From positions 62,001 to 126,000 of IMG/VR virus record IMGVR_UViG_3300035182_000466: DNA of 64,000 bases; one strand, 5' to 3'. The position numbers and the translations under genes are program-made. The notes beneath the pieces were generated by a model that made no database searches, had not been told where the DNA came from, and was given only the letters and a program-made list of their open reading frames with translations. Below, piece by piece: positions 8,249-59,920 of the stretch; within the stretch, counting starts at the first letter, position 1, and each line of letters starts with the position of its first letter. Source of the stretch: a virus.

Positions 8249-9973
8249 ATGGCAAGAAAGCTAAGATTCAAAGGTGTAGCAACCGTAGGTAAGAACCTTA
8301 AAACTGCTACTGCGGCATTTCTTAAAGTCATTATCGGTAATAACAGAAAGATGATTGTATCATCTGACCGTTCCGTTTATGCTGTTAATGCAATGCCTTC
8401 AGTAAAGTTTTGGGATCCAAAAAAAGGTGTAAGTCATGCAGGAGTTTTAGCCAAAGACTTTAATTTAACATTAGCGTCTGATGGTAATCCTGGTGATACA
8501 TTAAAAGCCTATACGGTTGTATGCTCCGGTTGTAAAGAAGTTATTTTGACTGAGTCTAAACTGAAACATTGTATCCTTTGTGCTTCTGAAATTGAAGACT
8601 CTGAATATGAAGATGTTGAGTTAGACTTACCTCCTACTGAAGAAATTGAAGATGCTACTAATGGGGATTTCCTTGAAGATGATGATGATGATGAAGAAAT
8701 AGAAGACGAAGATGGTGATGATCTTGAAGATTCAGATGATGACGAAGAAATAGAAGACGAAGATGGTGATGATCTTGAAGATTCAGATGATGACGATGAT
8801 GCAGAAGTAGAAGAAGATGGGGATTTCCTTGAAGATGATGATGATGAAGAAGTAGAAGAAGATGGGGATTTCCTTGAAGATGATGACGAAGATGACATCG
8901 AAGTAGGCGATGAACTTGAAGATGATGACGACTCAGACGTTGAAAATACCGATGAAGATGACCTAGAATTAGGTGATGATCTTGAAGATTCAGATGATAA
9001 TGATGAAGAAGTAGAAGACGAAGATGGTGATGAACTTGAAGATGAAGATTGCGTTGATGATGCTGACTGTGAAGATCAAATCGGTGATGAGATTGATGAA
9101 GAAGAAGAGCAAGTTGATGAAGATGATGAGCAGGGCGACCTGTTTATTGAAGATGATGGCTCAATAAATATCGATCTTGTTGATGGTGCTGAGTTAGAAG
9201 ACACTGATGAAACAGACGTAGAGTATTCTGCTTCTATCAAAGGTGAAAAGCGCTGGATTGTAAATGTTAATGGACTACCTGTAGCTCATTTAACTGAGAC
9301 AGCATCCGGTACAAACAAAGACATCTTCCATACCGAGAAATTCGGTAAAGTAATTAGTCAAGTAGTTGCTTCCGAAGGTTTAAAAGGTCTGAAGAAACTT
9401 GGATTCCAGTCAATCATAATTGCAGCTCCTATTAAGAGTCTTATTAACACTGCAGTACAGACTGAGATTTCAAAGCATGAGACTGAGGTAAGTAAGCAAC
9501 TCAAGTCTTTAGTTTCTGATTTCCAAACAACCTTAGGAATGGCTTCGGTTGGTATTAATCGTGGCTTCTTCTCTGATGCGGTTAACCCATTAAAAGTAAG
9601 AATGTGGGAAGAACTATCATCTTTAGGTATTCCACAACCACACAGACTTATTGACAGAGTATTTAAAGAAACCGCAGAAGATTTCTGTAAGATTCTGATT
9701 GAAAAAGCTTCAGAGCTTTATGCAAAGCCTGTTGAAGTTCGTGCAGAGCTTTCAAAAGCTATTATAGGAAGTAATTTCATTTCTGCTTCAGAAGAAGAAG
9801 ATGAAGAAGAAGTTGAAACTGTAGATGATAATGGATTGGAAGAATCAATTGCAAATAGAATCGAAGCTTCTTCAATTCCATTTGGAACTCGTTCAATAGT
9901 TGAAGCTGCGTCCACAACCGTTAAGGAAGATGCATTTACATCCAAATTAAAGACTGCTTTCAGCAGCTTATAA
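8249..9973 (+). CDS. Acidic scaffold-like virion assembly protein with Zn-ribbon
   Basis: I start at MARKLRFKG because AAAGGAG lies just upstream; longer in-frame starts have no ribosome site. Residues 1-90 form a small globular part. Four cysteines (C92, C95, C108, C111) form two CxxC pairs, typical of a zinc ribbon. Residues about 115-325 are an extreme Asp/Glu tract built from internal repeats. The last 230 residues look folded and helical, with a second acidic patch. Its place just ahead of the decoration-like and major capsid genes, and the acidity, suggest a prohead core or scaffold. No protease motif is evident. The assignment is inferred from position and composition. Confidence 0.5.
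   Translation: MARKLRFKGVATVGKNLKTATAAFLKVIIGNNRKMIVSSDRSVYAVNAMPSVKFWDPKKGVSHAGVLAKDFNLTLASDGNPGDTLKAYTVVCSGCKEVILTESKLKHCILCASEIEDSEYEDVELDLPPTEEIEDATNGDFLEDDDDDEEIEDEDGDDLEDSDDDEEIEDEDGDDLEDSDDDDDAEVEEDGDFLEDDDDEEVEEDGDFLEDDDEDDIEVGDELEDDDDSDVENTDEDDLELGDDLEDSDDNDEEVEDEDGDELEDEDCVDDADCEDQIGDEIDEEEEQVDEDDEQGDLFIEDDGSINIDLVDGAELEDTDETDVEYSASIKGEKRWIVNVNGLPVAHLTETASGTNKDIFHTEKFGKVISQVVASEGLKGLKKLGFQSIIIAAPIKSLINTAVQTEISKHETEVSKQLKSLVSDFQTTLGMASVGINRGFFSDAVNPLKVRMWEELSSLGIPQPHRLIDRVFKETAEDFCKILIEKASELYAKPVEVRAELSKAIIGSNFISASEEEDEEEVETVDDNGLEESIANRIEASSIPFGTRSIVEAASTTVKEDAFTSKLKTAFSSL
8693..8794 (+). repeat. 51-bp perfect tandem repeat (two copies)
   Basis: Two adjacent identical 51-base units (8693-8743 and 8744-8794) each encode 17 residues, EEIEDEDGDDLEDSDDD, within the acidic tract of the scaffold-like protein. 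Perfect identity at all codon positions shows a recent duplication rather than selection on protein composition alone. Confidence 0.95.
8804..8890 (+). repeat. 45-bp spaced direct repeat in acidic tract
   Basis: A second repeat family in the same gene begins at 8804 and again at 8849, with a 45-base period encoding a 15-residue unit (EVEEDGDFLEDDDDE). The copies are nearly identical and diverge only at the end of the second copy. The GATGGGGATTTCCTTGAAGA core also appears once just upstream of the 51-bp repeats. Confidence 0.85.
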
Positions 9974-10000
9974 TCTAATTCAAGAAAGGAATTTAAAACA

Positions 10001-10735
10001 ATGCTTAAACTTCAAAAAACCCGTATTATGAAATCCTTTCATCGTAACGTAGCTACTGGCTATGATATTAAGAATGAAGGGGTTGCACTCGTTTATGTAA
10101 ATGAGAATGGTGAAGGTAAAGTTAAACCTTCATCTGGAGCACCTAATGAGAAGTTTGCTGGTGTTTCTTTATCTCAAGTACAAGTTCCTACCCAACTTAC
10201 TGGTGTAGAAAACTTCCTAGTTGCTGGTACTACCACAATTAAATTAGCTCGTACTAATTTAGTAGCTGGTCAGATCACTGTTAAATCTGGTAATACTACT
10301 TTAGTACTTGCTGCCAATGCCGCTGCTGGTCAATTCGCTGTTAATACTTTAATTGGCGAAGTTACCATTGACTCTTCAAACGCTGGTACTGCTATTTCTC
10401 CAGTAGAAATTTCTGTTGTTTATAAGTATGTACCTTCTGTTCAAGAAGCAATCAATGCTCAAGGCTATGGCCCAGCAGGTGGCATCCATTCAGCTTCTTA
10501 CTATTCAGTAGTTGGTGTTATTACTGAAGGCGACGTCTCTACTGATCAATTCGATGTAACCGATGATTGGTCTGCAACTACTGGTCCTGTTTATCTTGGT
10601 CCTAATGGTTTATTTACTCTTAAAGCTGGTGGTACTGAGCTAAAGGGTTGTAACATTATTGGAGCTCCCTCTGCTCCTAATGGCTCCTTCTTTGGTGCTT
10701 TTATCACCCTTAACTTTGGTCCTTACAGCGGCTAA
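10001..10735 (+). CDS. Head decoration-like structural protein
   Basis: This 244-residue protein is rich in Gly, Ala, Thr and Val and predicted all-beta. The N-terminal part contains EGVALVYVNENGEGKVKP and KFAGVSLSQ, the kind of 'value/parameter then FAGV' pattern seen in small capsid-decoration families such as DUF2190. It lies directly upstream of the major capsid gene and shares its distinct codon use (many CGT Arg and C-ending codons), consistent with high expression in the virion. The C-terminal half may be an exposed domain. The assignment rests on position, composition and weak similarity. Confidence 0.55.
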   Translation: MLKLQKTRIMKSFHRNVATGYDIKNEGVALVYVNENGEGKVKPSSGAPNEKFAGVSLSQVQVPTQLTGVENFLVAGTTTIKLARTNLVAGQITVKSGNTTLVLAANAAAGQFAVNTLIGEVTIDSSNAGTAISPVEISVVYKYVPSVQEAINAQGYGPAGGIHSASYYSVVGVITEGDVSTDQFDVTDDWSATTGPVYLGPNGLFTLKAGGTELKGCNIIGAPSAPNGSFFGAFITLNFGPYSG

Positions 10736-12020: not shown

Positions 12021-12731
12021 ATGTATACTTTAGCTGGGGATCTTATTATTTTAGCTACTTCTGCTGCAAACTCCGGTGATTTAAAATCAGCGGCAAGATT
12101 ATTTCTTCAGGCTTGTGTTACATCTGATTTACCTGTGTTAATAAATAAGATTTCTAGTAACAAAGATGTAACAGCTTCTGATACTATAAGTTCTTATAAT
12201 TTTATCAATAAAAAGATAAATAAACGGTTCATCGTTGCCTTAACGGAAGAACTGGATAATACAACCCTTTTTAGTAAAAAAGAAATTATGGATGCAGTAA
12301 GAGCCATAAAATCTTCTGACACTTCTTCTAATAAAGATAAGTATTCTTTTGAAATAGTAGATAAAGAAGTTTGTCCTGAAGGATGTGATGAAACCTGTGA
12401 TTGTAATGAGGATGAGACTCAAGATGAATTTGATTTAGATGGTGCTGTTATAGAAGACGATGATATAGAGATATTAGCTTCTTCATCTACTTCTCTAGAA
12501 GAAGATATTAAAACTGCCTTAATCTCTTTAAAACTAAGATCAGATGATTGGGATGTTAAGAAGTTTATACCAATATTAATGACCATATTTCCGGATCTAG
12601 TTATAAAAGGATCATCTAATAGAGAGATAAGAAATATAGTCAATAATATTATAAACAGGTTAAAGACATTAGATAAAAACAAATTAAATGAATTACACAA
12701 TGCAGTAAAGCCGTTATTAACTCAGGAGTAA
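12021..12731 (+). CDS. Hypothetical protein (236 aa), neck region
   Basis: This is an unrecognised protein with helical ends and a central acidic, Cys-containing linker (CPEGCDETCDC near residues 120-130, then an Asp/Glu tract). The N-terminal 100 residues and the C-terminal 75 residues look like two small helical domains. It is the first gene after the capsid terminator and lies 2 bp upstream of the next gene. Its place between capsid and sheath is where head-completion or neck proteins lie in myophages, but no motif confirms this. Confidence 0.45.
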   Translation: MYTLAGDLIILATSAANSGDLKSAARLFLQACVTSDLPVLINKISSNKDVTASDTISSYNFINKKINKRFIVALTEELDNTTLFSKKEIMDAVRAIKSSDTSSNKDKYSFEIVDKEVCPEGCDETCDCNEDETQDEFDLDGAVIEDDDIEILASSSTSLEEDIKTALISLKLRSDDWDVKKFIPILMTIFPDLVIKGSSNREIRNIVNNIINRLKTLDKNKLNELHNAVKPLLTQE

Positions 12732-12733
12732 AT

Positions 12734-13522
12734 ATGTCAACCACTCCAGATTTTTCGGATATCTCCTTTGTTTTTGATACAGATGTTTCTAAATTTAGTG
12801 CAGGTTCTATAAATGCTATCTATGAAACTACACTATTAAGTTTAACCTTGCATGGATTAAGAGCTTCATTTAACAGGATATTACAGTGTCCTAGTCCTAT
12901 AGATTTTTCTTTTACAGACAGACTTAAAGAATTACAAGAAAAAAGAGAGTCTAATAACTTAAAGTATCCATATGCCTACATAGTATTAAACGATTTAGAT
13001 CTTTTAAAAGATCAGGCTAATACTACGGCAATGTCACATCGTGGATTAGCAGGAAGAAAAGCCTTCATAGGAGATTCAGTAGATGTAACATATGCATTTC
13101 CAATGAAGTTAAATATAACTTTGAATGTATTAGATTCAGATGTTGTAAGACTGTTAAGCTACGCACAATCCTTAATTTTGGCAGACGTAGCTAGAGCTTT
13201 TAATTTCAAAATAAATGCTTTTGATACACAAAGTATTTGTAAAGTTCAGAGATCTGGTAATATCTCTTTTCCAGAGAATCTTATATCTACTGATAACGAG
13301 CAAGACTACAACAGTGGTAAGGTATCTTTATCATTTGAAGTTCAAGGATGGATTGGATTTACTTGTTTAGTGCCTGGAGTTAAAACTATTAATTTAAGGT
13401 TCTATCAACAAGAAGTAAATTCAGATAAACGTACATTAGAACAAGCTTATATCTTAGAGTTGAAAGAGGAAGACGATGGCAAAGTCAATCTCTACAAATT
13501 TCTCCCTGCGGATAAACAATAA
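12734..13522 (+). CDS. Putative neck / tail-terminator structural protein
   Basis: This 262-residue protein is of mixed alpha/beta type. Segments such as YPYAYIVLNDLDLL, FPMKLNITLNVLDSD and YNSGKVSLSFEVQGWIGF recall the strand pattern of tail-terminator or neck proteins, and its position between the capsid and sheath genes fits a gp15 or gp3-like role. The similarity is loose. It overlaps the next gene by 47 bases, an unusually long overlap. Confidence 0.4.
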   Translation: MSTTPDFSDISFVFDTDVSKFSAGSINAIYETTLLSLTLHGLRASFNRILQCPSPIDFSFTDRLKELQEKRESNNLKYPYAYIVLNDLDLLKDQANTTAMSHRGLAGRKAFIGDSVDVTYAFPMKLNITLNVLDSDVVRLLSYAQSLILADVARAFNFKINAFDTQSICKVQRSGNISFPENLISTDNEQDYNSGKVSLSFEVQGWIGFTCLVPGVKTINLRFYQQEVNSDKRTLEQAYILELKEEDDGKVNLYKFLPADKQ

Positions 13523-14039
13523 GAATCAACCTAAGGTAATTGCAGATTCTAAAATATCCAGCGGATTGACTGAAGAATATTTTTATACAACAACTTATAA
13601 AGTTGATTCTATAGGTATATACTTAGGTGAAATAAAAGACTTTTTAGCGATTCAACCAAAATCTCCTATACTTATTGATTTTCAACGAGTAGACATGATA
13701 GAGCCTACACAAATATACTGTTCTAAACTTTTCATTAATCATGGAGAAATGGGAAAAGTTTGGTTACGAGTAGTAGGTGAACCAGTTATTACAACTGTTT
13801 GGTTTAGTACAAATAATTTGAATCTTGCTGGAAAGTTCTACATAAAAGTTAAGACAAAAGACTTGAGAATAAGAGAAAAGCAGTTAGAATTAAAGAATCT
13901 AGATGGTATAGACTTCAGTCTTCCTGTTAAACAATCTGTAAGATTTAAAGGAATCCGAAAGAAGAAGATACCATCAGATGGAATACCTGTGATAACTCAT
14001 TTTGGAGAAAATAAACTTTTAGTTGTAAATTCTAAGTAA
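13476..14039 (+). CDS. Hypothetical virion-region protein (187 aa)
   Basis: The gene starts inside the preceding gene with GAGGAAG as ribosome site. The protein appears beta-rich with several 'VWLRVVGEP' type strands and a basic C-terminal region (FKGIRKKKIP). I do not recognise the family. Its place in the head-to-tail interval suggests a neck, collar or head-completion component, but this is positional inference. Confidence 0.45.
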   Translation: MAKSISTNFSLRINNKNQPKVIADSKISSGLTEEYFYTTTYKVDSIGIYLGEIKDFLAIQPKSPILIDFQRVDMIEPTQIYCSKLFINHGEMGKVWLRVVGEPVITTVWFSTNNLNLAGKFYIKVKTKDLRIREKQLELKNLDGIDFSLPVKQSVRFKGIRKKKIPSDGIPVITHFGENKLLVVNSK

Positions 14040-48048: not shown

Positions 48049-50613
48049 ATGGCTACAATGCAAATAACTAAAGTCGGTTATGAGCAAATAACCGATGCAC
48101 TACAAAGTGGTTATACTTTAAAGATTACTAAAGTTAAATTTGGTACTGGATCAGATTATGTTCCAACAGCAGGAGATGTTGAACTTCATGGTCATATTCT
48201 ATATGAAGGCCCAATTAGTAATGTGGATGTAGTAAATGATGATATAATTGATTTTCTTTGTATTTGCCCTGAGAACTTAGGTGTAGACACAGTCACTATT
48301 GGTGAAGTTGGATTATATATAGAAAATACTGATGGAACCGATACTCTATTTGCATTAGCTTGTTATCCTTATCCTTTCAGTAAAGCACCAAATATGCGGT
48401 ATAAAACACACTGCTTAGTTTTGAATCCATATATAAGCAATGCAGTAGATTTAACTTTAACTTGGACTATGAGTTTACCACGAGTTAATTATTATGGAGA
48501 TTTACCTAATCCGGAAAGAACTGGAGATAATGCTTATATAGTAAACCACGGATTTACAGATAGTGGTGTTTTAAAACCTTCTTTAGTTACACGATACGCA
48601 ATGTCTGATACAGGCCCACTAGCGTGGGGGCTCTTAAATGGAGATTTATATTATGATGGCTATGTTACTCCAGTTGAAGGGGATCCAGCCAGTTTTAAAT
48701 TAGCTGGTTTACCATTGTCTAACTTTCCTGCCATAAATATTAAATTTGCTTTTGTTTATGTTTGTGAAGGTACAGGAAGAACTCAGTGTAGAGCATTATC
48801 TTATAATGCATCACTAGATTGCTTTACTACTTTGTATGAAGACTTTTCCTTAACTGTTAAGGGATCTGGAACTCCTTCCTATGAAGGAGCTTGTAATACA
48901 GGTAACACTGCAGGTACTGTGTTGCATATAACTAATCTAGATTCAAGCTCAAGAGTATTGATTTGGACAGCGGTAAGGATGGAAGCTACTGGTCTTGTTT
49001 TTAGAGGTCGTTGGGATGCAGCAGCAGGATATCCATCTAGTCCTATTCCAGGATCATACTGGGTAGTATCTGGTAATGGTATTATAAATGGAACCTGTTA
49101 TCAAGTTGGAGACTGGATGGTATTTTCTGGTGATGAACAGTGGGATAAGATTGATAACACTGAACTACCTTACTTACTATATCGTGGTGATTGGGATGCT
49201 TCTACCGGTCAAGCTCCACCGCCACAACCAATACAATATTATTGGCAGAATATTCGTCAAGGACATTATTGGGTAATAAGTACTGCTGGAGTTATAGCAG
49301 GAGTATGGTTTGATGTTGATGATTGGATAGTATGGAATGGAACAAAGTGGCAAAAAGTAGATAATAAAGGTGGTCTAAAATTTAGAGGGTATCATGCTAT
49401 AGTATCTGATAATCATGTGCCTACTGTTTTAACTGATGGTGACTATTGGATTGTGTCCCAAAAAGGAACTATTAATGGTATTCGTTATGATGTTAAAGAT
49501 ATCCTAGTATGGACAGGTTCAACCTTTATGCGGTTGATAAATCAAGAAGGCTTAGTTTATCAAGGTCTTTATGACCCAAGCATAACTGGTGAATATCCAG
49601 TGCCTTTCAAATCTGGTGATCTTTGGATTGTTAAAAAGAATGGTGAAGTAACTAATCAAGATGATCCTACAGTTAAAGATAACTTATATGTAGATGATTT
49701 TTTAGTAGCTATTCCAACTACTAGTACTACTTTTACCTGTGATACTAATAGTAATAGTACCATTTTAAATACTACTGGTAATATGCGTTGGAAAGTAATT
49801 TCAGCAGGAGGATTAACCTATCGTGGTACTCATGATGCATCTACTGGTATTATGCCAATTCCCCTGCATAAAGGAGACTATTGGGTTATTACTAATCCAG
49901 GTTATTTAAATGGTGTATATTATGAAACAAATGATTGGATTACATTTAATGGATCTTCTTTTAATAAAGTTAGTAATAGAGAAGGTCTTAAATATCAAGG
50001 ACTGTGGGAAATTGGTACCAACGGATCTGTACCTCCAACTCATCCAGTAGAAGGTGACTTTTGGATTGTTAGCTCTCCTGGATCTGTACAAGGCACTGGA
50101 TATAGTATAGGTGATTGGTTAGTTTGGACAAATTCTGGATGGACTAACGTTGATAATAGACCTGGATTCTATTATAGAGGAGACTGGAATCCAACTTCAG
50201 GAACAAATCCAGTTGCATTAAAAGAAGGCGATTTGTATCGTATTAACGCTGCTGGTACATTCAATGGCGAGCATGTAGCTCCTGGAGACTTCATTGTTTG
50301 GACAACAGCAGGATGGCTCCTGATCTTAGGAACTCTTGACCGTATAGATATTCCTAGATATAACATAACCACTAATGATTACATGCTCCGTGAGTATGAA
50401 TATGCAGATGCTTCTACTGGTAAAGTATATAACTCAGCTAAAAACCTTAAGATAGGATTTGCATTAGAGATTTTATTTAAAGATAGAACTAATCCAGTGT
50501 ATGTACCATATCTTGAACAATTGAACGAATTAGAGTTTTGTGGTTGTACTTGTACTTGTACTTGCCAATGTACGGCACCTTGTAACTGTTGTAAAGGCGC
50601 AGGTCCAGTTTAA
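48049..50613 (+). CDS. Tail-collar fibre (gpH-like) with Cys-rich C-terminal tail
   Basis: The N-terminal 140 residues match the phage tail-collar fibre N-terminal domain (DUF3751-like): MATMQITKVGYEQITDAL, TLKITKVKFGTGSDYVPT, VTIGEVGLYIENTDGTDTLF. Residues about 310-775 contain seven repeats of 60-70 residues of the type YRGDWDASTG...GDYWVISTAG...DWIVWNG...KVDN. The last 25 residues hold nine cysteines (831-848, including TCTCTCQC), unusual for any fibre. Radical-SAM genes begin two genes later. An excellent ribosome site (AGGAGG) suggests strong expression. Confidence 0.8.
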   Translation: MATMQITKVGYEQITDALQSGYTLKITKVKFGTGSDYVPTAGDVELHGHILYEGPISNVDVVNDDIIDFLCICPENLGVDTVTIGEVGLYIENTDGTDTLFALACYPYPFSKAPNMRYKTHCLVLNPYISNAVDLTLTWTMSLPRVNYYGDLPNPERTGDNAYIVNHGFTDSGVLKPSLVTRYAMSDTGPLAWGLLNGDLYYDGYVTPVEGDPASFKLAGLPLSNFPAINIKFAFVYVCEGTGRTQCRALSYNASLDCFTTLYEDFSLTVKGSGTPSYEGACNTGNTAGTVLHITNLDSSSRVLIWTAVRMEATGLVFRGRWDAAAGYPSSPIPGSYWVVSGNGIINGTCYQVGDWMVFSGDEQWDKIDNTELPYLLYRGDWDASTGQAPPPQPIQYYWQNIRQGHYWVISTAGVIAGVWFDVDDWIVWNGTKWQKVDNKGGLKFRGYHAIVSDNHVPTVLTDGDYWIVSQKGTINGIRYDVKDILVWTGSTFMRLINQEGLVYQGLYDPSITGEYPVPFKSGDLWIVKKNGEVTNQDDPTVKDNLYVDDFLVAIPTTSTTFTCDTNSNSTILNTTGNMRWKVISAGGLTYRGTHDASTGIMPIPLHKGDYWVITNPGYLNGVYYETNDWITFNGSSFNKVSNREGLKYQGLWEIGTNGSVPPTHPVEGDFWIVSSPGSVQGTGYSIGDWLVWTNSGWTNVDNRPGFYYRGDWNPTSGTNPVALKEGDLYRINAAGTFNGEHVAPGDFIVWTTAGWLLILGTLDRIDIPRYNITTNDYMLREYEYADASTGKVYNSAKNLKIGFALEILFKDRTNPVYVPYLEQLNELEFCGCTCTCTCQCTAPCNCCKGAGPV

Positions 50614-50630: not shown

Positions 50631-51368
50631 ATGTCAAGAGTATATTTTTGTGTTAAAAACAGTTATTCTTCTACCACTCCTAAACCTGCGAATATTACGT
50701 CTGTAGGAGATGTAACTATAACAGTATCTAATTCAAACATAATAATAAATCAACCCGATGTTCTTATAGACTCAGATAGAGATATACATTTAATAGTTGC
50801 TTCAGATTTTACATTTAATACTCCTGGTCTAGTTCAGACTTCGCATGTTTTTGGTTCAAAGGATTATTTTGATAAAGTACAGGTTTATTATTATAATAAT
50901 ACCTATTTCTATTATTTTGAAAGTGTAGAACATTACTGTGCCGTATATGAGCGTCACTTTTCTACAGTTTATTTTAGACATGATCCTACTAAAATATTCT
51001 GTGAAGTAACATCTAATGCGATAGCTATTCAAGGAGCAGGTAAATTTGTTTTTCTAATCAGAGGTCTTTTTGTTTCAGAAAATGTAGTTACCTTGAAAAT
51101 GCAAGATGAAGAAAAAACTGAAATACCAATATCTTTAATATCAGATAGTAATACACAAACTACGTTAAACTCTATAAATACTTCTTTCAATACGTTAGAA
51201 AATGGTACTATAGTAGATTCCTTTATTCAAAGTCGTGGATTCTTTTTAGAGCTAGACCCCGATGTTTTAAAAGGTGAAGGTTATCTAATAATAGAGAATG
51301 AATTACCTACAAGTTTTGCAATAACCGGTGTATCTAAGACTAGAAGTAAAATGATGTTCTTTATTTAA
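50631..51368 (+). CDS. Hypothetical beta-rich protein between fibre and radical-SAM genes
   Basis: This 245-residue protein appears all-beta, with many Tyr and Phe in the middle (YYYNNTYFYYFESVEHY) and no membrane segment. I do not recognise it. It lies 17 bases after the Cys-rich fibre and 34 bases before the first radical-SAM gene. It could be a fibre partner, a fibre chaperone, or another modification substrate; it has few cysteines. Confidence 0.5.
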   Translation: MSRVYFCVKNSYSSTTPKPANITSVGDVTITVSNSNIIINQPDVLIDSDRDIHLIVASDFTFNTPGLVQTSHVFGSKDYFDKVQVYYYNNTYFYYFESVEHYCAVYERHFSTVYFRHDPTKIFCEVTSNAIAIQGAGKFVFLIRGLFVSENVVTLKMQDEEKTEIPISLISDSNTQTTLNSINTSFNTLENGTIVDSFIQSRGFFLELDPDVLKGEGYLIIENELPTSFAITGVSKTRSKMMFFI

Positions 51369-51402: not shown

Positions 51403-52767
51403 ATGATAACTAAACATGATTTAGAAGATGATATTTTAACCTTTTCTAAAGATAGGTCTTTTAGGTATTTTAAAACAAAAGGCGGATTATTAGTAAAGAG
51501 CTTTCTTAATACAAATAGATACTATATAGAAAGTGCTGATGATGATTTACCTATTGCCTCTGTTTGTTTTGGAGAAGAAATATTTACTAATGATGAATTA
51601 GATCAACTATATGATATTATAAATCAAGATAAAAAACAGTTACGCCAAGATATATTTAGTTTAGGAATATTCAATTCTACCTGTAATGTTAGTTGTGAAT
51701 ATTGTACTAATGGCGATAGAACTAAAATGCTCCAGAAGCTACCAAGTATAGAACAACTACAAGAGGTCTTTAATACTTATAACATCAAATATGTAAGTGT
51801 AGCTGGAGGAGAACCATTAGTAGAATGGCCCCAACTAAAAAATATTCTGACATTTTTAGATGAACAACCTGGTATAAAAACAATGGAAATCTTATCAAAT
51901 GGAAGATTACTTAAGCCTGAGATACTTGAGTTTATATCTAGTTTAACACGAGACGTTAAGTTATTTTTAACTGTTACTACAAAAGAAGACTCAAAAGATC
52001 ACATGAATATACAAGAGCTTTATGAGTTATATCCGAAGTTGGTAGGACACCCTGTTGAAATAAATATTGTTATAGACCACTATAAATTTGATGTAGATAG
52101 ATTTTTATCTTTAATTGTAGAAATGGTTAAAAAAGGAAATTTTGGAGTAACCTTAAATGCAATACGCAGAGAAGACGCAACAGAAGAAGGACTATTGCAA
52201 TTAATAAATAATGTAAAAGCAATGATCCGAAGTCCTCATATTCGTGATTTGTCTTGCCCCGAAGACGATAATCCAACAACACCTTTTTATTATGCAACCG
52301 GAAGTTGTAGTAGTGGGATGATTTGTGCTTCATCTAAAGGTTATTCCTTTTGTTTGGCCTCTATGCCACAATATATAGAACAAACTGTAGAAGGTGTAAA
52401 GAATATAAGATATATGCAGTCTAAGCATGGATGTGAATCTTGTGATGCTTATTTTGATGATGTCTTATGTAAGAATAATATTTTCTCTGGTAGTTGTTAT
52501 AAACTAGAAAGATTCAACTGTTTAACTTGTCCTAATTTATGCCAATGCCAATATCAGAAGTGTTATTATCTTTCAGTGAAAAAAATAACAAATCCAGTTG
52601 CAGATTATAATAGAGACTTAAGATGTATAGCTTATGTTTTAATTTTCAATCTTATTGACTATATAAAACATCAACATATAGATTATTCTGATAGTAATAG
52701 TGTGTATAAAATAGACTCAAATAAAATACCGGAGAAATTAGTAAATGAATATTTTTCTACTAAATAA
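51403..52767 (+). CDS. Radical-SAM protein A (SPASM-like, peptide-modifying type)
   Basis: The iron-sulphur/SAM motif CxxxCxxC is present as STCNVSCEYC (C94, C98, C101), followed by the SAM-binding GGEP loop in VSVAGGEPLVEW (135-138). About 90 residues precede the barrel and could include a peptide-binding region. The C-terminal 150 residues carry many cysteines (CESCDAYFDDVLC, CLTCPNLCQCQYQKC), fitting auxiliary clusters as in SPASM or twitch domains, though spacing is not canonical. Such enzymes usually modify peptides. Its 3' end overlaps the next gene by 23 bases. Confidence 0.85.
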   Translation: MITKHDLEDDILTFSKDRSFRYFKTKGGLLVKSFLNTNRYYIESADDDLPIASVCFGEEIFTNDELDQLYDIINQDKKQLRQDIFSLGIFNSTCNVSCEYCTNGDRTKMLQKLPSIEQLQEVFNTYNIKYVSVAGGEPLVEWPQLKNILTFLDEQPGIKTMEILSNGRLLKPEILEFISSLTRDVKLFLTVTTKEDSKDHMNIQELYELYPKLVGHPVEINIVIDHYKFDVDRFLSLIVEMVKKGNFGVTLNAIRREDATEEGLLQLINNVKAMIRSPHIRDLSCPEDDNPTTPFYYATGSCSSGMICASSKGYSFCLASMPQYIEQTVEGVKNIRYMQSKHGCESCDAYFDDVLCKNNIFSGSCYKLERFNCLTCPNLCQCQYQKCYYLSVKKITNPVADYNRDLRCIAYVLIFNLIDYIKHQHIDYSDSNSVYKIDSNKIPEKLVNEYFSTK

Positions 52768-53863
52768 ACATCACACTTGCTACCTATCAAATTCTGAGTT
52801 AAACTTTCTTAGGTTCTGTGCAGAGAAGCTTAAAGGTCTTGAATATGTAGAACAACCAGAGCTAGCAGATTTAATTGTTTATTCCGGATGTTCTGTTTCT
52901 GACGATTATATCATGAGGAATAATAAAGAGCTGGATAAACTTATAGCGCTATATCCAGAAAAGAAATTTATGTTATTTGGATGTGCTGCACCTTATGGTG
53001 AGCACTCAAATGTAATTAGTATTGTACATCTAGAACATTCTAAATTAGATGATCTCTTTAATTTACCTTCTGGTTCAATAAAGCAACTTCACTCTTATTA
53101 TTTCACCTATGAGAAAATTTTTGAAGATCAGAAAGCTATTTTTATATCTAGTGGTTGTGCTAGTAATTGTACTTATTGTAATATTAAGTTATCTAGACCT
53201 AAATTAAAATCAATGCCTTTAGAAGATATTCTTGAAAGAGTGAATCAGTTTTATGCAACTAATCATCATTATGTCTTATGCTCAGATGACTGTGGTTCAT
53301 ATGGATTAGATATAGGGACTAATTTTGCAGTTTTACTAGAAACTTTAGTTTTAAATTTTCCTGATATACTTATAAATATAAAGTGGGTTAATCCACAATG
53401 GTTTATAAAGTATTATGATGTTATAAAGAAATATGTGGATACAGGTAATGTTATAGGTATAGAATGTCCTATTCAGTCAGGATCAGATAGAATATTAAAG
53501 TTAATGAATCGTCCATATACTGTAGAAGAAGTCATTGATAAATGGACCAAGATAAAAGGAAAGTTACTATCTTCTAAAGGTACAGTCATAGTAAACTTTC
53601 CTGGAGAAACTTGGGAAGAATTTTTAGCTTCTATGTCTTTACGTAAACATTATGAAATTTTTATAGTATATATTTTCAAACTAAACAAAAATACAGCTAG
53701 TGCAAATCTTCCAGATAGACGAACAGAGGAGGATGCTAAGAGACGACTTGAATATCTAAAAGAACATTATCCAGACATATACTATGGTGGAGATCTTATA
53801 GATAATAACTTAGACCGCTGTATAGACAAACCTTATATGGTAGATAACTTAGAATATGATTGA
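52745..53863 (+). CDS. MiaB/RimO-like radical-SAM methylthiotransferase
   Basis: The layout matches methylthiotransferases. Three N-terminal cysteines for the second cluster are present: C12 (HTCYLSNSEL), C49 (YSGCSVSDD) and C80 (FGCAAPYG). The radical-SAM motif is CASNCTYC (C138, C142, C145). Family signatures follow: IECPIQSGSDRILKLMNRPY and VIVNFPGETWEEF. At 372 residues it is shorter than MiaB or RimO and seems to lack the C-terminal TRAM domain that binds RNA or protein. Known substrates are a tRNA adenosine and ribosomal protein S12; the target here is unknown. It overlaps both neighbours. Confidence 0.82.
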   Translation: MNIFLLNKHHTCYLSNSELNFLRFCAEKLKGLEYVEQPELADLIVYSGCSVSDDYIMRNNKELDKLIALYPEKKFMLFGCAAPYGEHSNVISIVHLEHSKLDDLFNLPSGSIKQLHSYYFTYEKIFEDQKAIFISSGCASNCTYCNIKLSRPKLKSMPLEDILERVNQFYATNHHYVLCSDDCGSYGLDIGTNFAVLLETLVLNFPDILINIKWVNPQWFIKYYDVIKKYVDTGNVIGIECPIQSGSDRILKLMNRPYTVEEVIDKWTKIKGKLLSSKGTVIVNFPGETWEEFLASMSLRKHYEIFIVYIFKLNKNTASANLPDRRTEEDAKRRLEYLKEHYPDIYYGGDLIDNNLDRCIDKPYMVDNLEYD

Positions 53864-55076
53864 TACTTTATCCATAAAAATGGTAGATATTCCAGGTGTT
53901 CTTGAATATCATTCTTCGACGCATTCTTTCAATTATTGTCCTGAAGTTATACAGACTGAAAGAATAAAATTTGAAGATAGAAATGAAATACAACAAGACT
54001 TCTCGAAAGAATATCTTAATAAACAAAAAGAAGAATCAGATAAAGTACCAATTATAGGTACAGTAACCATTACTAATGAATGTAACATGGGATGTTCTTT
54101 TTGTTATGCTCATAAAAATGAGCAACTAGGAAAAATAAATTTAGACTATCTTATACGATTAAAGGAAAAGCTTCCTAAAGAATGTTTTGATCATCTTATT
54201 TTATCTGGTGGTGAACCATTATTATATTTTGATACGGTTAAGTCAGTAAGAAAGTTATACTCAAAGGTTGTAATATATACTAATGGTAGTCTTTTAACAG
54301 AAGATATTATTAAATGGTGTATAGATACAAAGACATGGTTATACATAACGTTAGATTTTGATATTCCAGATTTTATTGGTCATCACTCTAGTCCTGTAAG
54401 AGATTTACTAGAAAAGTACATTTATAAGTATCCTAAATTGTTAGATATAATATCTTTTGGGACAGTTCTTCCAATAGAAGAACTTATAAATTTGCCTAAG
54501 CTTAGGCAACAACAAAAACCTTTTGAGTCAGGTATATGGAGACTATACAATTTTTTAGATCCAAAAGATAAAAATTATGTAGTTAGTTCTGAAGGTTTTG
54601 ATCTTGAAATGAGTAATATAGAAACTGGTTCTATTAGTCTTCAAGAATCAATATTTTTTAGATATTTGAACTATGTACAAACAGCTTCTACTAATGAATA
54701 CAACTATAGTTGTTGTGGAAATTCATTAGCCCTAACACCCAGTGGAAACTTAACTATCTGTAATGAGTTATCAAGTTTACCTGAGTCTCGTTTAAAAAAT
54801 ACAAAAGTATGGTCAATAGATTCATTAGATTTAGAAGAAGTTAAACAAGAACAATTAAGAGTAGGTAAATACGGTATTAAAAGTTTTTGTGGTTCATGTA
54901 TTATGAAATATTTTTGTTCAGGATTGTGTTGGCAGAAAAAGGGTAATCTTAAACATCAATGTCAAATGGCACGCTTCGGAATAGCATATAGTATGTATTA
55001 TAAGTTTAACTATTTGAATACTAATTCAATACTAAATCCGAATACAAAGTTATCAGAAATCTTAAGAGATAGGTAA
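53856..55076 (+). CDS. Radical-SAM/SPASM protein B
   Basis: The core motif is NECNMGCSFCYA (C76, C80, C83) with LILSGGEPLLYF as the GGE loop. The C-terminal region is a canonical SPASM domain: CCGNSLALTPSGNLTIC, then CGSCIMKYFCSGLC (C-x2-C-x5-C-x3-C) and a final Cys in KHQC, so two auxiliary clusters are expected. Members of this family install thioether, C-C or other links in ribosomal peptides or mature enzymes. It overlaps the methylthiotransferase gene by 8 bases and is a paralogue of the next gene. Confidence 0.9.
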   Translation: MIDTLSIKMVDIPGVLEYHSSTHSFNYCPEVIQTERIKFEDRNEIQQDFSKEYLNKQKEESDKVPIIGTVTITNECNMGCSFCYAHKNEQLGKINLDYLIRLKEKLPKECFDHLILSGGEPLLYFDTVKSVRKLYSKVVIYTNGSLLTEDIIKWCIDTKTWLYITLDFDIPDFIGHHSSPVRDLLEKYIYKYPKLLDIISFGTVLPIEELINLPKLRQQQKPFESGIWRLYNFLDPKDKNYVVSSEGFDLEMSNIETGSISLQESIFFRYLNYVQTASTNEYNYSCCGNSLALTPSGNLTICNELSSLPESRLKNTKVWSIDSLDLEEVKQEQLRVGKYGIKSFCGSCIMKYFCSGLCWQKKGNLKHQCQMARFGIAYSMYYKFNYLNTNSILNPNTKLSEILRDR

Positions 55077-55083
55077 TATATTT

Positions 55084-56352
55084 ATGTCTTCATCAAAAAT
55101 TTTAGTAAATGCTATTGGTATAAAAGATAATTCTACGGGATTTGCTATCTTATATGTTCCAGAATTTCATTTATTTTTAAAGTCTGAAATACGTCAAAAT
55201 AAACCTGTAGAATTTTATACTAATTATTCAATGCCTGTACTTTGTACTCATCAAAATGAGATATATGAAGAGTACAATAAACTAGAAACTCAGGCAGTAA
55301 ATAAAATTCCTAACATAGGTTATGTAATAGTTAATAATGTCTGTAATATGAATTGTACCTTTTGTTATGCTGCGGCTAATACTAATCATAAAAGAGTAGA
55401 CATTTCTGATCTAGAGCACCTGTCTAAGATATTGCCCAAAAATTCGTTTAGAAAAGTAATTATTTCTGGAGGAGAACCTTTATTAGACTTTGATCTTGTA
55501 AAACAAATAAGAACATTTTTTGATGAAATGACTATAAACTCTAATGGAATGCTTCTTACAGAAGATATAGCTAATTGGTTAGTAGAAACAAAGACAAAAA
55601 TGTATATCGCCTTAGATTATGAGATTAAAGATTTTGAAGGACATGACTTTAATGCTAAAGCGCATGTAGAAAGTATAATCGCTAAAGTTCCAGAAGTTCT
55701 TCCATTTATAGAAGTCGCTGTAACTTACCCTAGTGATAAACTAGATGAGTTAAAAGATATTAGAACTCAAAATCTTCCATTTGAAAAAGAACTGACCCAC
55801 GATTTTAATTACATTAAAGGAAAGGATCCTTTAGTTTTAACTAAATCTATATTTGAAAAAGAAATAGAAAGAATAGAAAGAGATGAAATTTCATTACAAG
55901 AATCTATCTTTCATAAACCTCTTAAATATATACGAAATACTTATAACTGGAGACTTAATATAGAGTCATGCTCTCCAGCCGTACATTTAAATCATCTTGG
56001 AGATTTACATCTATGTCAGGTTAGAGCCTCCAATACAAATAGACCTGAAGAGTATGAGAAAGATGTTATCTGTAAAGCTAAAGATTTTAATTTAGACATA
56101 TATAGACAAAGATCCAACAAAGATAAAAAGATTGGAGTTTGCACAATAGATAAAAATTGTAACTGTAGATGGTTTTGTGGAAATATATGTTGGGCTAATA
56201 TAAAACATAATAAACATAATTGTGAAGTTCTTAAATACTCGTTATTCTATTCTATGTATTTAGTTCATAATTATCTTTCTATGGAAGGTTTTAGTTTATT
56301 AAATTTAGATAGATTTTTCAATTCAAAACTAAAAGGATTGAACTATGTCTGA
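55084..56352 (+). CDS. Radical-SAM/SPASM protein C
   Basis: NVCNMNCTFCYA (C87, C91, C94) and VIISGGEPLLDF define the radical-SAM core. The C-terminal cysteines (SCSPAVHLNHLGDLHLC, then NCNCRWFCGNIC and KHNC) resemble SPASM but with altered spacing in the second group. Strong similarity to protein B, for example ISLQESIF in both, shows a tandem duplication with divergence, suggesting distinct sites or substrates. It starts 7 bases after protein B and its end overlaps the giant Ig-repeat gene by 8 bases. Confidence 0.88.
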   Translation: MSSSKILVNAIGIKDNSTGFAILYVPEFHLFLKSEIRQNKPVEFYTNYSMPVLCTHQNEIYEEYNKLETQAVNKIPNIGYVIVNNVCNMNCTFCYAAANTNHKRVDISDLEHLSKILPKNSFRKVIISGGEPLLDFDLVKQIRTFFDEMTINSNGMLLTEDIANWLVETKTKMYIALDYEIKDFEGHDFNAKAHVESIIAKVPEVLPFIEVAVTYPSDKLDELKDIRTQNLPFEKELTHDFNYIKGKDPLVLTKSIFEKEIERIERDEISLQESIFHKPLKYIRNTYNWRLNIESCSPAVHLNHLGDLHLCQVRASNTNRPEEYEKDVICKAKDFNLDIYRQRSNKDKKIGVCTIDKNCNCRWFCGNICWANIKHNKHNCEVLKYSLFYSMYLVHNYLSMEGFSLLNLDRFFNSKLKGLNYV

Positions 56353-59300
56353 TATTCGTCCTGTACTAAGTATTTTAGAAAAACCTGAAACCTTAAATAA
56401 AAGTAAGCAATGTTCTTTTACCTTTAAGTCATCTAAACCTTTGAAATATGTCTGGTGTGTTTTGGATAATAATCCAAGTTTTAAACTATATCCATCAAAA
56501 GATTATCCAGAAGGTGATATTGCTATTTTATCTTTAACCTATGATGATTCTGATGATAGAGTTAAACACGAGCTAACAGTTCAAGCAGTAGATACAGATG
56601 ATAATCTTGAGATATATAAAAATGTAATAGTTTGGACTAATGTTTTTATACCTATACAGTCTACATTAGTAGAACATCCTTCTGATCCAGATTTAGACTT
56701 AGCAAGTTATTTTCTAATTACTACAAATAAAACTGTATTGGGAGTAAGATATTCCTTAAATAATAATCCTTATGTTTTTGTCAAACCTTCAGATAGAGTT
56801 TCTGATAACAAGACAGTAGATATTTCATTATATGATCTATCAGAAAGATCATATACGATAAGATATAAAGCTGTAGATGAATTTGGATTCGAAGAATTAA
56901 CTGAACATGAATTTACTTGGAATAAAGTAGTACGTCCTATTACTACAATAGTAAATATATCTGAAACAAACGATCCAAAAGTAATAGAGTTATCTGTAAA
57001 TAAACAAGTTGCATATATTGAAAGTTATCATTATTACGGTGAAGATAAAGAATCTTTTAGCGAAATTTGTTCAGAAGTAAACTCCTCTGGACAAGAAAGA
57101 TTCTACTTTAGAATACCACAACCTTTTGAAGGTAAAAATGAAGTACAATTTACAGCTGTAGATACTAAAGGTTACAGAGAATTAGAACCCGTTGTTTATA
57201 CTTGGTATGAAGATAAAACAGTTTTATATTCTACCTTTATTGAGACACCAGCAAAAGTATCACAGATTACAGATTCTAAATTTACTATTGTAACTAATAA
57301 ACCAGTCGATCATATAGAATATACTTTAGACGATCAACCGGAGAATAAAATATACCCTTGGCCTGAAGATGTAACTAATAAAACGTTCAAGATAACATTT
57401 ACATCTATGCAAGAAGGGTTTCATAATCTATCTATAAGAGCAGTAGATGGGTCTGGATATTTGGAGGATGAGGCACGTGTTTATTCATGGAAAGTAGAAG
57501 ATCCACCAGTTTCAAATATAATAAAGTACCCAATTAGTCCTAGTACAGAATCAACTGCTACCTTTAAAATTGTTGCTAACAAACCATTGAGTCATGCATT
57601 ATACTCGTTGAACGGATCGTCTTGGAAAGTATTTAATATAGATCCTAATGACTCAACTAAGACAAGTGCAAGTATAACAATATCTAATTTAAAAAATGGC
57701 GATTATACTATACAGATAAAAGCAGTAGATTTATTTGGAGCTGTGGAGAGAGAATCAACTGAAAAATCTTGGAGTGTAGAAGGTATTGAAGTTGTTTATC
57801 CAAATGTAGGATATGGTTCATCTAAAACAATCTTACCAGATGGAGTTACAGAAGCATTTAGATTTCACCCATCTCCAGGTGTATATTTTCCAGAGAGCTT
57901 ACTTGAGTTACCATCTGTTAGATCAATAATATATCCAGATACATTTATTGTAACATTTCCCGAAAAGTTTTCTAATCAAACTTCAGGAGTATTTACATTT
58001 TCATCTACTAGAATTGGAGCAACCTACCAGATTAGTTTAGATGGTTCTGAGTGGAAAGATGTAGGTAATCTATATAAATTTAATGATCTAGTTTTAGGCT
58101 CTCATTTACTTAAAGTTAGATCTATAGATAGAGCTGGGAATATTGATCCATCACCAGCAGAGTATTCTTGGAGTATAGACACTAAAAAACCAGTTTCTAC
58201 CTTTGTAGAAACTCCACCTAATATATCTATCTCACAGGAAGCATCTATAAGAATAGAGGTAGATAAACCAGTTCAGTACGAGTTGTACTCTTTAGATAAT
58301 TCTATATGGTTAAAGTCTTATCCTTTAGAGTCAGATCCAGATAATAGAACGATATTAGTAGAATTATATAATCTAAATTCTGGACCGCATAATTTTAGAG
58401 TAAAGGCTTGTGATATATATGGTAATATAGAAGTACCAGAAAAGTATTATAACTGGTTTGTAAATACAGATAGGACTCCACCTGATACTATTATAACTAC
58501 TATAATTCCTGAATATACTAATAAAGTTAACTGGGATATAGACTTTATGTCACCTAAACTTGGTTGCACTTTTGAAGTAGCTTTAGACGTAACATTATCT
58601 AATACAGATATACGATATGGTGAATGGGTGTCTGCGAAAAGTCCTTATATTCTTTCTGATTTAGCTGATGGACATTATGTGATAAAGGTTAGAGCGATTG
58701 ATCTATTTGGAGATATAGATGTTACACCTGCTCAATTAGCTTGGAATATAGATACAGTTCCACCAAAATTATTTTTTGTTACAAAGCCGACAGGACCAAA
58801 TGGAACATTTGAAGTTGTCTCAAATAAAACAAATTGCAGCTATCATTTTATTTATAATGATAGTGATACAGAAAACGTAGTATACAGTCCTATCATACCA
58901 TATAGCAATTTACCTGAAGGAGTTAATATTGTAAAAATTTATGCTAAAGATATGGCAGGAAATTCTGGAGATGTTATTTCTTATACTTGGACTATTGATT
59001 CAGTAACACCTAATACCTTTATTGATACTTATCCAATAGATAATAGCTCAAGTGGGCAGTTTACTTATCACGCAGATAAACCTAATTGTGTCTTTGAAGT
59101 TACTTTGGACTCAGTTACAAGTTTTAAAGAAAGTCCTTTTACTTTCACTAATTTATCTTCAGGTTTTCATACCTTTTCAGTTAGAGCAAAGGACTTAAAT
59201 GGAAATTTTGATGTTAATCCCAAAACATATACTTGGGAAGTAAAGATTTTAAGTACGATAACTGTTACAGTTTTTAATGCAATTAATGCTAAAGCTATCT

Positions 59301-59920
59301 CAGGTGCACTTGTATCTATAGACACTGGAGAATCTAGTAATACAAATACTTCTGGTGAAGCTAAGTTTACTAGTATAAAGGCAGGACTTAGAACAGTCAC
59401 AATCGCTAAAGATCAATTTGTTACAGAAACCGTAACAGTTACTTTAACTGAAGCTGCGATAGCAATAACTGTTTTATTATCGCCCTCTCTATGGGATGGT
59501 GCCTATCGTGCTGTATTACGTTGGGGTTACAAACCTTCTGACTTAGATATCCATATGTATGTACCATCAGGATCAACTTACATAGACCGTAACTGGGCTA
59601 ATAAAGGAAGTGAAATTTCCACACCATCTGGATGGCTAGACATAGATGATACTGATGGTTATGGTCCAGAAACTGTTACTGCTAAAACTCCAAATATAGG
59701 TATTTATCAAATATGGGTGTACAATTATTCTCAAACACCAGATATAACATCTTCAAATGCTGAAGTTAGTATATACTCAGACCAAGGAAAACAGCGTACT
59801 TATAAAGTACCTTTAAACTTAGGTACAGGATATAAAGCTTGGCATATATGTGATATCGACTGTGTAAACAAAATTATAACTGATGTAAATTTATTAAGAA
59901 CAAATCTACCAAATATATAG
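56345..59920 (+). CDS. Giant Ig-repeat adhesin with CarboxypepD_reg and DUF2135-like end
   Basis: At 1191 residues this is the largest protein in the window. About ten Ig-like repeats of 85-100 residues fill residues 1-970, each with a YSLDNSIW or similar core and a closing YSWSID-type strand, related to those in the fibre gene at 25373. Residues about 975-1045 resemble a carboxypeptidase regulatory-like domain (ISGALVSIDTGESSNTN). The last 140 residues (LRWGYKPSDLDIHMYVPSG) resemble DUF2135. It is coupled to the radical-SAM operon and could be a substrate. Confidence 0.75.
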   Translation: MSDIRPVLSILEKPETLNKSKQCSFTFKSSKPLKYVWCVLDNNPSFKLYPSKDYPEGDIAILSLTYDDSDDRVKHELTVQAVDTDDNLEIYKNVIVWTNVFIPIQSTLVEHPSDPDLDLASYFLITTNKTVLGVRYSLNNNPYVFVKPSDRVSDNKTVDISLYDLSERSYTIRYKAVDEFGFEELTEHEFTWNKVVRPITTIVNISETNDPKVIELSVNKQVAYIESYHYYGEDKESFSEICSEVNSSGQERFYFRIPQPFEGKNEVQFTAVDTKGYRELEPVVYTWYEDKTVLYSTFIETPAKVSQITDSKFTIVTNKPVDHIEYTLDDQPENKIYPWPEDVTNKTFKITFTSMQEGFHNLSIRAVDGSGYLEDEARVYSWKVEDPPVSNIIKYPISPSTESTATFKIVANKPLSHALYSLNGSSWKVFNIDPNDSTKTSASITISNLKNGDYTIQIKAVDLFGAVERESTEKSWSVEGIEVVYPNVGYGSSKTILPDGVTEAFRFHPSPGVYFPESLLELPSVRSIIYPDTFIVTFPEKFSNQTSGVFTFSSTRIGATYQISLDGSEWKDVGNLYKFNDLVLGSHLLKVRSIDRAGNIDPSPAEYSWSIDTKKPVSTFVETPPNISISQEASIRIEVDKPVQYELYSLDNSIWLKSYPLESDPDNRTILVELYNLNSGPHNFRVKACDIYGNIEVPEKYYNWFVNTDRTPPDTIITTIIPEYTNKVNWDIDFMSPKLGCTFEVALDVTLSNTDIRYGEWVSAKSPYILSDLADGHYVIKVRAIDLFGDIDVTPAQLAWNIDTVPPKLFFVTKPTGPNGTFEVVSNKTNCSYHFIYNDSDTENVVYSPIIPYSNLPEGVNIVKIYAKDMAGNSGDVISYTWTIDSVTPNTFIDTYPIDNSSSGQFTYHADKPNCVFEVTLDSVTSFKESPFTFTNLSSGFHTFSVRAKDLNGNFDVNPKTYTWEVKILSTITVTVFNAINAKAISGALVSIDTGESSNTNTSGEAKFTSIKAGLRTVTIAKDQFVTETVTVTLTEAAIAITVLLSPSLWDGAYRAVLRWGYKPSDLDIHMYVPSGSTYIDRNWANKGSEISTPSGWLDIDDTDGYGPETVTAKTPNIGIYQIWVYNYSQTPDITSSNAEVSIYSDQGKQRTYKVPLNLGTGYKAWHICDIDCVNKIITDVNLLRTNLPNI

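Follow-up and report, generated by a model that had tools for sequence, protein, structure and literature searches.

Four radical S-adenosylmethionine (rSAM) genes follow one another among the tail-fibre genes of a virus, IMG/VR record IMGVR_UViG_3300035182_000466, which raises the question of what such enzymes do beside the structural genes of a virion. They lie in the 64,000-nucleotide stretch analyzed here (the window, G000:C1:62001-126000 within the 170,061-base record). In the original prediction, made from the DNA letters alone, the four genes were taken as a single pathway that modifies virion proteins, by analogy with the maturation of ribosomally synthesized and post-translationally modified peptides (RiPPs). 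Our analysis indicated that the cassette is likely to modify the cysteine-rich C-terminal tail of a fibre protein encoded upstream of it, a peptide of which that prediction made no mention. The locus probably serves the maturation of a virion protein in the manner of RiPP biosynthesis, with the fibre C-terminus as the core peptide. The features concerned are as follows (window coordinates).

48049-50613, plus strand: tail-fibre protein, 854 residues, the proposed substrate, with a tail-collar-fibre-like N-terminus (PHROG tail-fibre matches; Phage_tail_fib just under the cut-off; homologues in loci L017 and L026)
50428-50511, plus strand: candidate recognition segment just ahead of the Cys tail, YNSAKNL..G..LEI.F...NPVYVPY, conserved in L017
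50536-50613, plus strand: Cys-rich C-terminal tail FCGCTCTCTCQCTAPCNCCKGAGPV, the proposed core peptide (9 Cys in 20 residues)
51403-52767, plus strand: rSAM enzyme A, 454 residues, with a divergent Cys-rich C-terminal (SPASM-like) domain (Pfam Radical_SAM, E 7e-10; CNVSCEYC; GGEP)
52745-53863, plus strand: rSAM enzyme B, 372 residues, with a MiaB/RimO-like methylthiotransferase fold lacking TRAM (TIGR00089, E 1.5e-43; CASNCTYC)
53856-55076, plus strand: rSAM/SPASM enzyme C, 406 residues, with the canonical SPASM Cys pattern (CNMGCSFC); profile and fold nearest CteB
55084-56352, plus strand: rSAM/SPASM enzyme D, 422 residues, a paralogue of C (35% identity over 345 residues; CNMNCTFC)

The predicted arrangement of the four genes at 51403-56352 was borne out. 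Behind the fibre gene come a 245-residue open reading frame (ORF), A, B, C, D and an Ig-repeat gene; A overlaps B by 23 bases and B overlaps C by 8 bases, C and D are separated by 7 bases, and D overlaps the Ig-repeat gene by 8 bases. Fibre and baseplate genes lie upstream of the cassette, in agreement with its proposed placement among tail-fibre genes. All four proteins exceeded the Pfam Radical_SAM cut-off (E 7e-10 to 5.5e-19), and the CX3CX2C motif, claimed to be intact throughout, was read completely in each of them. The claim of three SPASM-type proteins with auxiliary cysteines stood in part: C has the full pattern (CX9-15GX4C, then CX2CX5CX3C), and D has its first half exactly and its second half with one spacing variant (CX5CX5CX3C), whereas the spacing in the Cys-rich C-terminal region of A is non-standard, so that the label SPASM is applied to A by analogy, and the Pfam SPASM model matched none of A, C and D. 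A resembles the product of L017:8572-9825 (E 3e-10). A single-sequence structure of A was poor (predicted local distance difference test score, pLDDT, 42) and was not used. A fifth rSAM gene of the virus (G000:C1:149102-150085, minus strand, 327 residues, CEAGCTYC) lies outside the window and away from the tail module.

When a profile of nine phage SPASM-type enzymes was compared with solved structures, CteB was returned first (E 3e-25), followed by TigE, SkfB and SuiB. A Foldseek search with an AlphaFold model of C (moderate confidence; mean pLDDT 66, predicted template-modelling score 0.67) likewise placed CteB first, with TigE, SkfB, ChlB and anSME next, and NCBIfam peptide maturases were among the best partial matches of D. 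By sequence profile and modelled fold, C thus groups with peptide maturases and not with QueE or NrdG; the latter identity was rejected, as only short partial matches far below the cut-offs were obtained and the neighbours are tail genes. CteB and SkfB make Cys thioethers (PMC8326336; PMC6231123).

Enzyme B proved to be MiaB/RimO-like, as predicted, with its match to TIGR00089 remaining under the curated cut-off and stopping at model position 358 of 429; in the PDB, RimO and TM_1862 were matched (E 4e-19). It shares with RimO and MiaB the rSAM core and a UPF0004-like N-terminus with three cysteines (residues 12, 49 and 80, plausibly spaced; the UPF0004 match itself was weak and below cut-off). 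It differs from them in falling far below every NCBIfam equivalog cut-off, in sitting in a fibre-linked cassette and in the TRAM domain, for which Pfam and NCBIfam searches gave no match. Because TRAM is the RNA-binding domain of tRNA-acting MiaB, its absence from B fits a protein substrate.

The candidate substrate of the cassette is the fibre C-terminus. A scan of all 182 ORFs revealed that the FCGCTCTCTCQCTAPCNCCKGAGPV tail is by a wide margin the most Cys-dense stretch in the virus, with nine cysteines in 20 residues as against five in the next best. Synonymous codons are mixed within it (ACT and ACG for Thr, TGT and TGC for Cys); since such mixing inside the tails points to selection on the protein, DNA repeat slippage was ruled out as their origin. 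Just ahead of the tail, a segment ending NPVYVPY is common to this virus (YNSAKNLKIGFALEILFKDRTNPVYVPY) and L017 (pairwise E 5e-10), and the fibre of an unrelated jumbo phage (locus L239) has YDSASNLVGNSLEVVFGATTKYIP in the same place, with weak similarity over short segments (pairwise E 7e-4). Judged from these alignments, the segment may be a docking or leader site, or merely a common fibre module. No relative of the window fibre was present among the annotated phages.

When C and B were scanned for as single sequences, only identical copies of the same virus were returned, and two relatives of the locus were recovered by alignment searches, L017 with C and D and L026 with the fibre. L017 is a distant relative (45% identity to the window in the fibre, 40% in the baseplate), in which baseplate genes are followed by a Cys-tailed fibre, a 250-residue ORF and a pair of overlapping genes for SPASM-type rSAM enzymes, one of them akin to A and the other to C and D. 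Its fibre ends in FCSCTCTCTCTCPCTCQFYSPHSCCQGMM (also cited as FCSCTCTCTCTCPCTC...). L026, a locus of a 295-kb phage, is closer to the window than L017 in its fibre (57% identity over 479 residues), baseplate genes, DNA ligase (57%) and small downstream genes, with synteny kept. The L026 fibre ends ...FWLAIGH, without a Cys tail; there are no rSAM genes at this locus, the sole one of the 295-kb record being about 140 kb away, and no Cys array comparable to that of the window occurs in the whole record (best, 6 in 20). Tail and local cassette are therefore both absent from one close relative. A final scan of viral sequences with an alignment of three baseplate sequences yielded only one extra remote contig, which has neither the tail nor rSAM genes.

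Two further lineages, unrelated to that of the window, came from scans that ignore rSAM genes. A DNA pattern for CxCTCTCTC was run on IMG/VR and GTDB genomes, and the figures given here apply among the matches listed. Most of these were shadow reading frames, and the true C-terminal tails were those of the copies of the window virus, L239, L169, L242 and L329. rSAM-like ORFs were present in six of 352 pattern loci, five of the six being Cys-tail loci (descriptive Fisher p 3e-9, the lineages not being independent). Limiting the Thr codons to ACY gave no drop in scan noise, and a (CX)7 scan gave no genuine match, only GC-rich shadow ORFs such as RCRCRC. At L239, a locus of a 363-kb jumbo phage, the gene for a 551-residue fibre-like protein that ends in CGCTCTCTCTCTCNCAHSKCAKWG is followed by two small ORFs and a run of four rSAM genes; here, too, the tail is the top Cys stretch of the genome (9 of 20 residues, next best 5, among 565 ORFs). 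L169, L242 and L329 form a third, siphovirus-like lineage, with lambda-like tail genes beside L169, in which a protein of 187-191 residues ends in a long CT array, a SPASM-type rSAM gene overlaps it or comes directly behind it, and a B12-binding rSAM gene is next. The Cys-tail proteins of L169 and L329 are 73% identical and their rSAM genes only 31%, the latter value indicating a long-lasting association. L329 (JAQUSE010000017) is a contig of a Ca. Omnitrophota metagenome-assembled genome, with a phage-like tail locus that has a Cys tail, a SPASM-type rSAM gene and a second rSAM gene; it is a prophage or a mis-binned phage in an Omnitrophota genome.

The search of other phages for co-occurrence with fibre genes, put forward in the original prediction as a check, was thus answered by L017, L239 and L169/L242/L329, and where nucleotide-metabolism neighbours had been named as a possible refutation, structural genes were found instead in all three lineages. 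The idea of a RiPP-like modification of virion proteins gained strong comparative support in this way, from the co-occurrence of a Cys-rich C-terminus with rSAM genes across lineages, and the pattern of joint presence and absence allows a specific substrate peptide to be named.

For this substrate, the role of B and the benefit to the phage, we infer the following course. The core peptide, a (Cys-Thr)n tail, would be part of the fibre product itself, at its C-terminus, and the short conserved segment ahead of it may act as leader or docking site. After translation of the fibre, C and D, and probably A too, would bind the tail, and the SAM-derived 5'-deoxyadenosyl radical would abstract hydrogen from backbone or side-chain carbons. 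The Cys sulfurs would then be joined to neighbouring carbons as thioethers, with Thr as the obvious acceptor, leaving a stapled tip on each fibre chain. To the thioether as the bond formed we give slightly less than an even chance. B would add sulfur or a methylthio group at a further site on protein, not on tRNA, and the phage might gain a receptor-binding tip that is rigid and withstands oxidation or proteases.

A Cys-rich ribosomal product encoded beside its enzymes, by which RiPP systems are recognized, is provided here by the fibre tail, the putative substrate. No peptidase or transporter gene was found within the cassette. As peptidase and exporter are missing and the proposed substrate is a large structural protein, the system is said to work like a classical RiPP cluster, and the assignment as such a cluster was rejected. 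The SPASM thioether synthases, CteB among them (SCIFF/ranthipeptide and sactipeptide maturases; PDB 5wgg, 5why), resemble the window system in the rSAM core, the Cys pattern for SPASM auxiliary clusters and an adjoining Cys-rich partner gene. The window differs from them in that the partner is a virion fibre and not a short precursor, that three SPASM-type enzymes are joined by a MiaB-like one, and that no RRE was detected and no peptidase or exporter gene adjoins.

Several points weigh against our reading. RRE, a winged-helix leader-binding domain, is common, if not universal, in SPASM rSAM peptide maturases, and neither RRE nor PqqD gave a Pfam match in the window proteins; the N-terminus of the C model has three strands and one helix, at low confidence. 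Enzymes with separate or dispensable leader recognition do exist (PMC8326336). A is divergent, and the mean pLDDT of the C model is only 66. A fixed pathway made up of all four enzymes, as proposed, found no support, as L017 has two SPASM-type enzymes and no MiaB-like gene in its cassette; because L017 lacks B and the extra enzyme varies by lineage, the final product probably differs as well. The lineages are only three, all derived from metagenomes, and Cys tails without rSAM neighbours were counted among the matches listed only, hence incompletely. The case is built on genes and sequence comparison and the product is a predicted one, and Cys tails could bind metal without any rSAM action.

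It is accordingly worth weighing whether the tail is a metal- or Fe-S-binding tip, similar to metallothionein, which the rSAM enzymes serve only indirectly, or whether they act on another virion protein. The cysteines of the tail exceed the need of any single cross-link; metal binding by CXCXC arrays is seen in many proteins, and the fibre tips of other phages hold metal. Such a tip would leave unexplained why genes resembling rSAM peptide maturases come after the tail in three lineages and none is found at the tail-less locus, and we consider it improbable. A modification of host tRNA or ribosomal protein S12 by B during infection, unrelated to the SPASM enzymes, is the most probable of the alternatives, though itself unlikely: MiaB/RimO is the best family of B, and MiaB/RimO/MtaB-like genes occur in phage records, yet B has no TRAM, stays far from the equivalogs, overlaps both A and C, and has a B12-type rSAM gene as its counterpart in a comparable place in the third lineage.

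The remaining alternative is auxiliary metabolism, the cassette making a small molecule or a sugar or nucleotide modification and its place behind the fibre being incidental. The original statement that phages carry only single rSAM genes was too strong, given that the Campylobacter phages CP220 and CPt10 have 11-12 of them, including a five-gene module, together with amidinotransferases, a set that their authors read as metabolic (PMC2853527). These phages are like the window virus in having several rSAM genes per genome, and CPt10 also in having a Cys-repeat protein (gp145) near one of them; they differ from it in having no link to a fibre C-terminus. No Cys-tail protein was found at other multi-rSAM phage loci (L019-L022). 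However, C is like peptide maturases, and neither QueE and NrdG nor sugar enzymes come close to it; B falls short of a complete MiaB, structural genes adjoin the cassette in all three lineages, and the enzymes are present or absent jointly with the Cys tail, which makes the metabolic explanation the least probable of the three.

The proposed partnership of rSAM enzymes with a Cys-rich protein has a parallel in SPN3US (NC_027402) and its relatives among Erwinia and Salmonella phages, where a virion gene and Cys-rich ORFs precede an rSAM pair (gp102/gp103). These ORFs, of 133 and 134 codons with 20-21 Cys and a shorter one, have CSxxC-type repeats; most of them lack annotation or are hidden beneath gp100, a gene called in the wrong frame. 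In SPN3US they stand directly before gp102/gp103 (L285:9091-9492, 9503-9907 and 9908-10129; NC_027402, ~143.2-144.2 kb). Their leader-like N-terminus was found in 72 SPN3US-like phage records. These jumbo phages, which are culturable, resemble the window in having the rSAM pair within a tail/virion gene block beside Cys-rich ORFs, and differ from it in that the partners are separate proteins of ~70-135 residues that share a leader-like N-terminus and carry repeats of the CSxxC type. This case and that of Agrobacterium phage Atu_ph07 below suggest that tail regions outside the lineage of the window, too, pair Cys-rich proteins with rSAM enzymes. We see an even chance that several unrelated phage lineages independently recruited RiPP-type rSAM enzymes that cross-link a tail fibre or tail protein at its Cys-rich tip, giving a new class of virion proteins stapled after translation, to which the separate Cys-rich proteins of SPN3US-like phages would be a parallel.

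Other phages gave single observations. In Agrobacterium phage Atu_ph07 (NC_042013), gp170 (L281:17020-17910) ends FCHSSCHASCHNSRSRR and is encoded between two rSAM genes, gp171 and gp168, with a further rSAM gene (gp165) behind them and the cupin-like gp172 ahead. In Phage Phass-1 (OQ749652), a code-15 gut phage, an rSAM gene is closely followed by a Cys-rich frame that bears no annotation, ACNTCNVGCDIQCRTCITCNSCKDRSC (L283, near 13579). CPt10 gp145 (L284:8050-9654) has 35 Cys and tandem CDCNYCT repeats, ~2.3 kb upstream of the rSAM gene gp141; the authors noted the 21-base repeat but did not connect it with rSAM (PMC2853527).

Two further genes of the window flank the cassette.

50631-51368, plus strand: ORF of 245 residues between fibre and cassette, with a counterpart in the same position in L017 (25% identity)
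56345-59920, plus strand: Ig-repeat protein, 1191 residues (Pfam Y_Y_Y, Big_13, Ig_J)

The former gave no family match in Pfam/PHROG-type family searches of the window proteins. The latter had no counterpart among the L017 ORFs and, being unconserved beside the cassette there, is not a core part of the system. The record as a whole encodes a contractile-tail gene set (tail sheath, baseplate and fibre genes), the nearest named relatives of its tail sheath being Phage NCTB and PaBG (35% identity). Outside the window it also encodes a giant ORF of 4341 residues (G000:C1:33132-46157) and a collagen-like repeat protein of 1227 residues (G000:C1:26648-30331), and a protein similar to the latter adjoins the L017 cassette (12214-13731).

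The known targets of rSAM maturation are small secreted peptides, cofactors, sulfatases and tRNA, together with a few sites in ribosomal proteins or enzymes. Phages with several rSAM genes and the enzyme families themselves are already known; the coupling to a Cys-rich fibre C-terminus appears to be new. In the open-access literature searched, we found no description of rSAM enzymes acting on the virion or tail proteins of phages and none of an rSAM cassette coupled to such a C-terminus. If the proposed function is correct, these phages would offer a source of enzymes for stapling long repetitive Cys-Thr sequences on large proteins, and the sets of multiple rSAM genes in several jumbo phages, so far unexplained, could be accounted for. 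Maturation by rSAM enzymes would then extend to virion assembly, by way of a cassette dedicated to the tip of a phage adhesion fibre.

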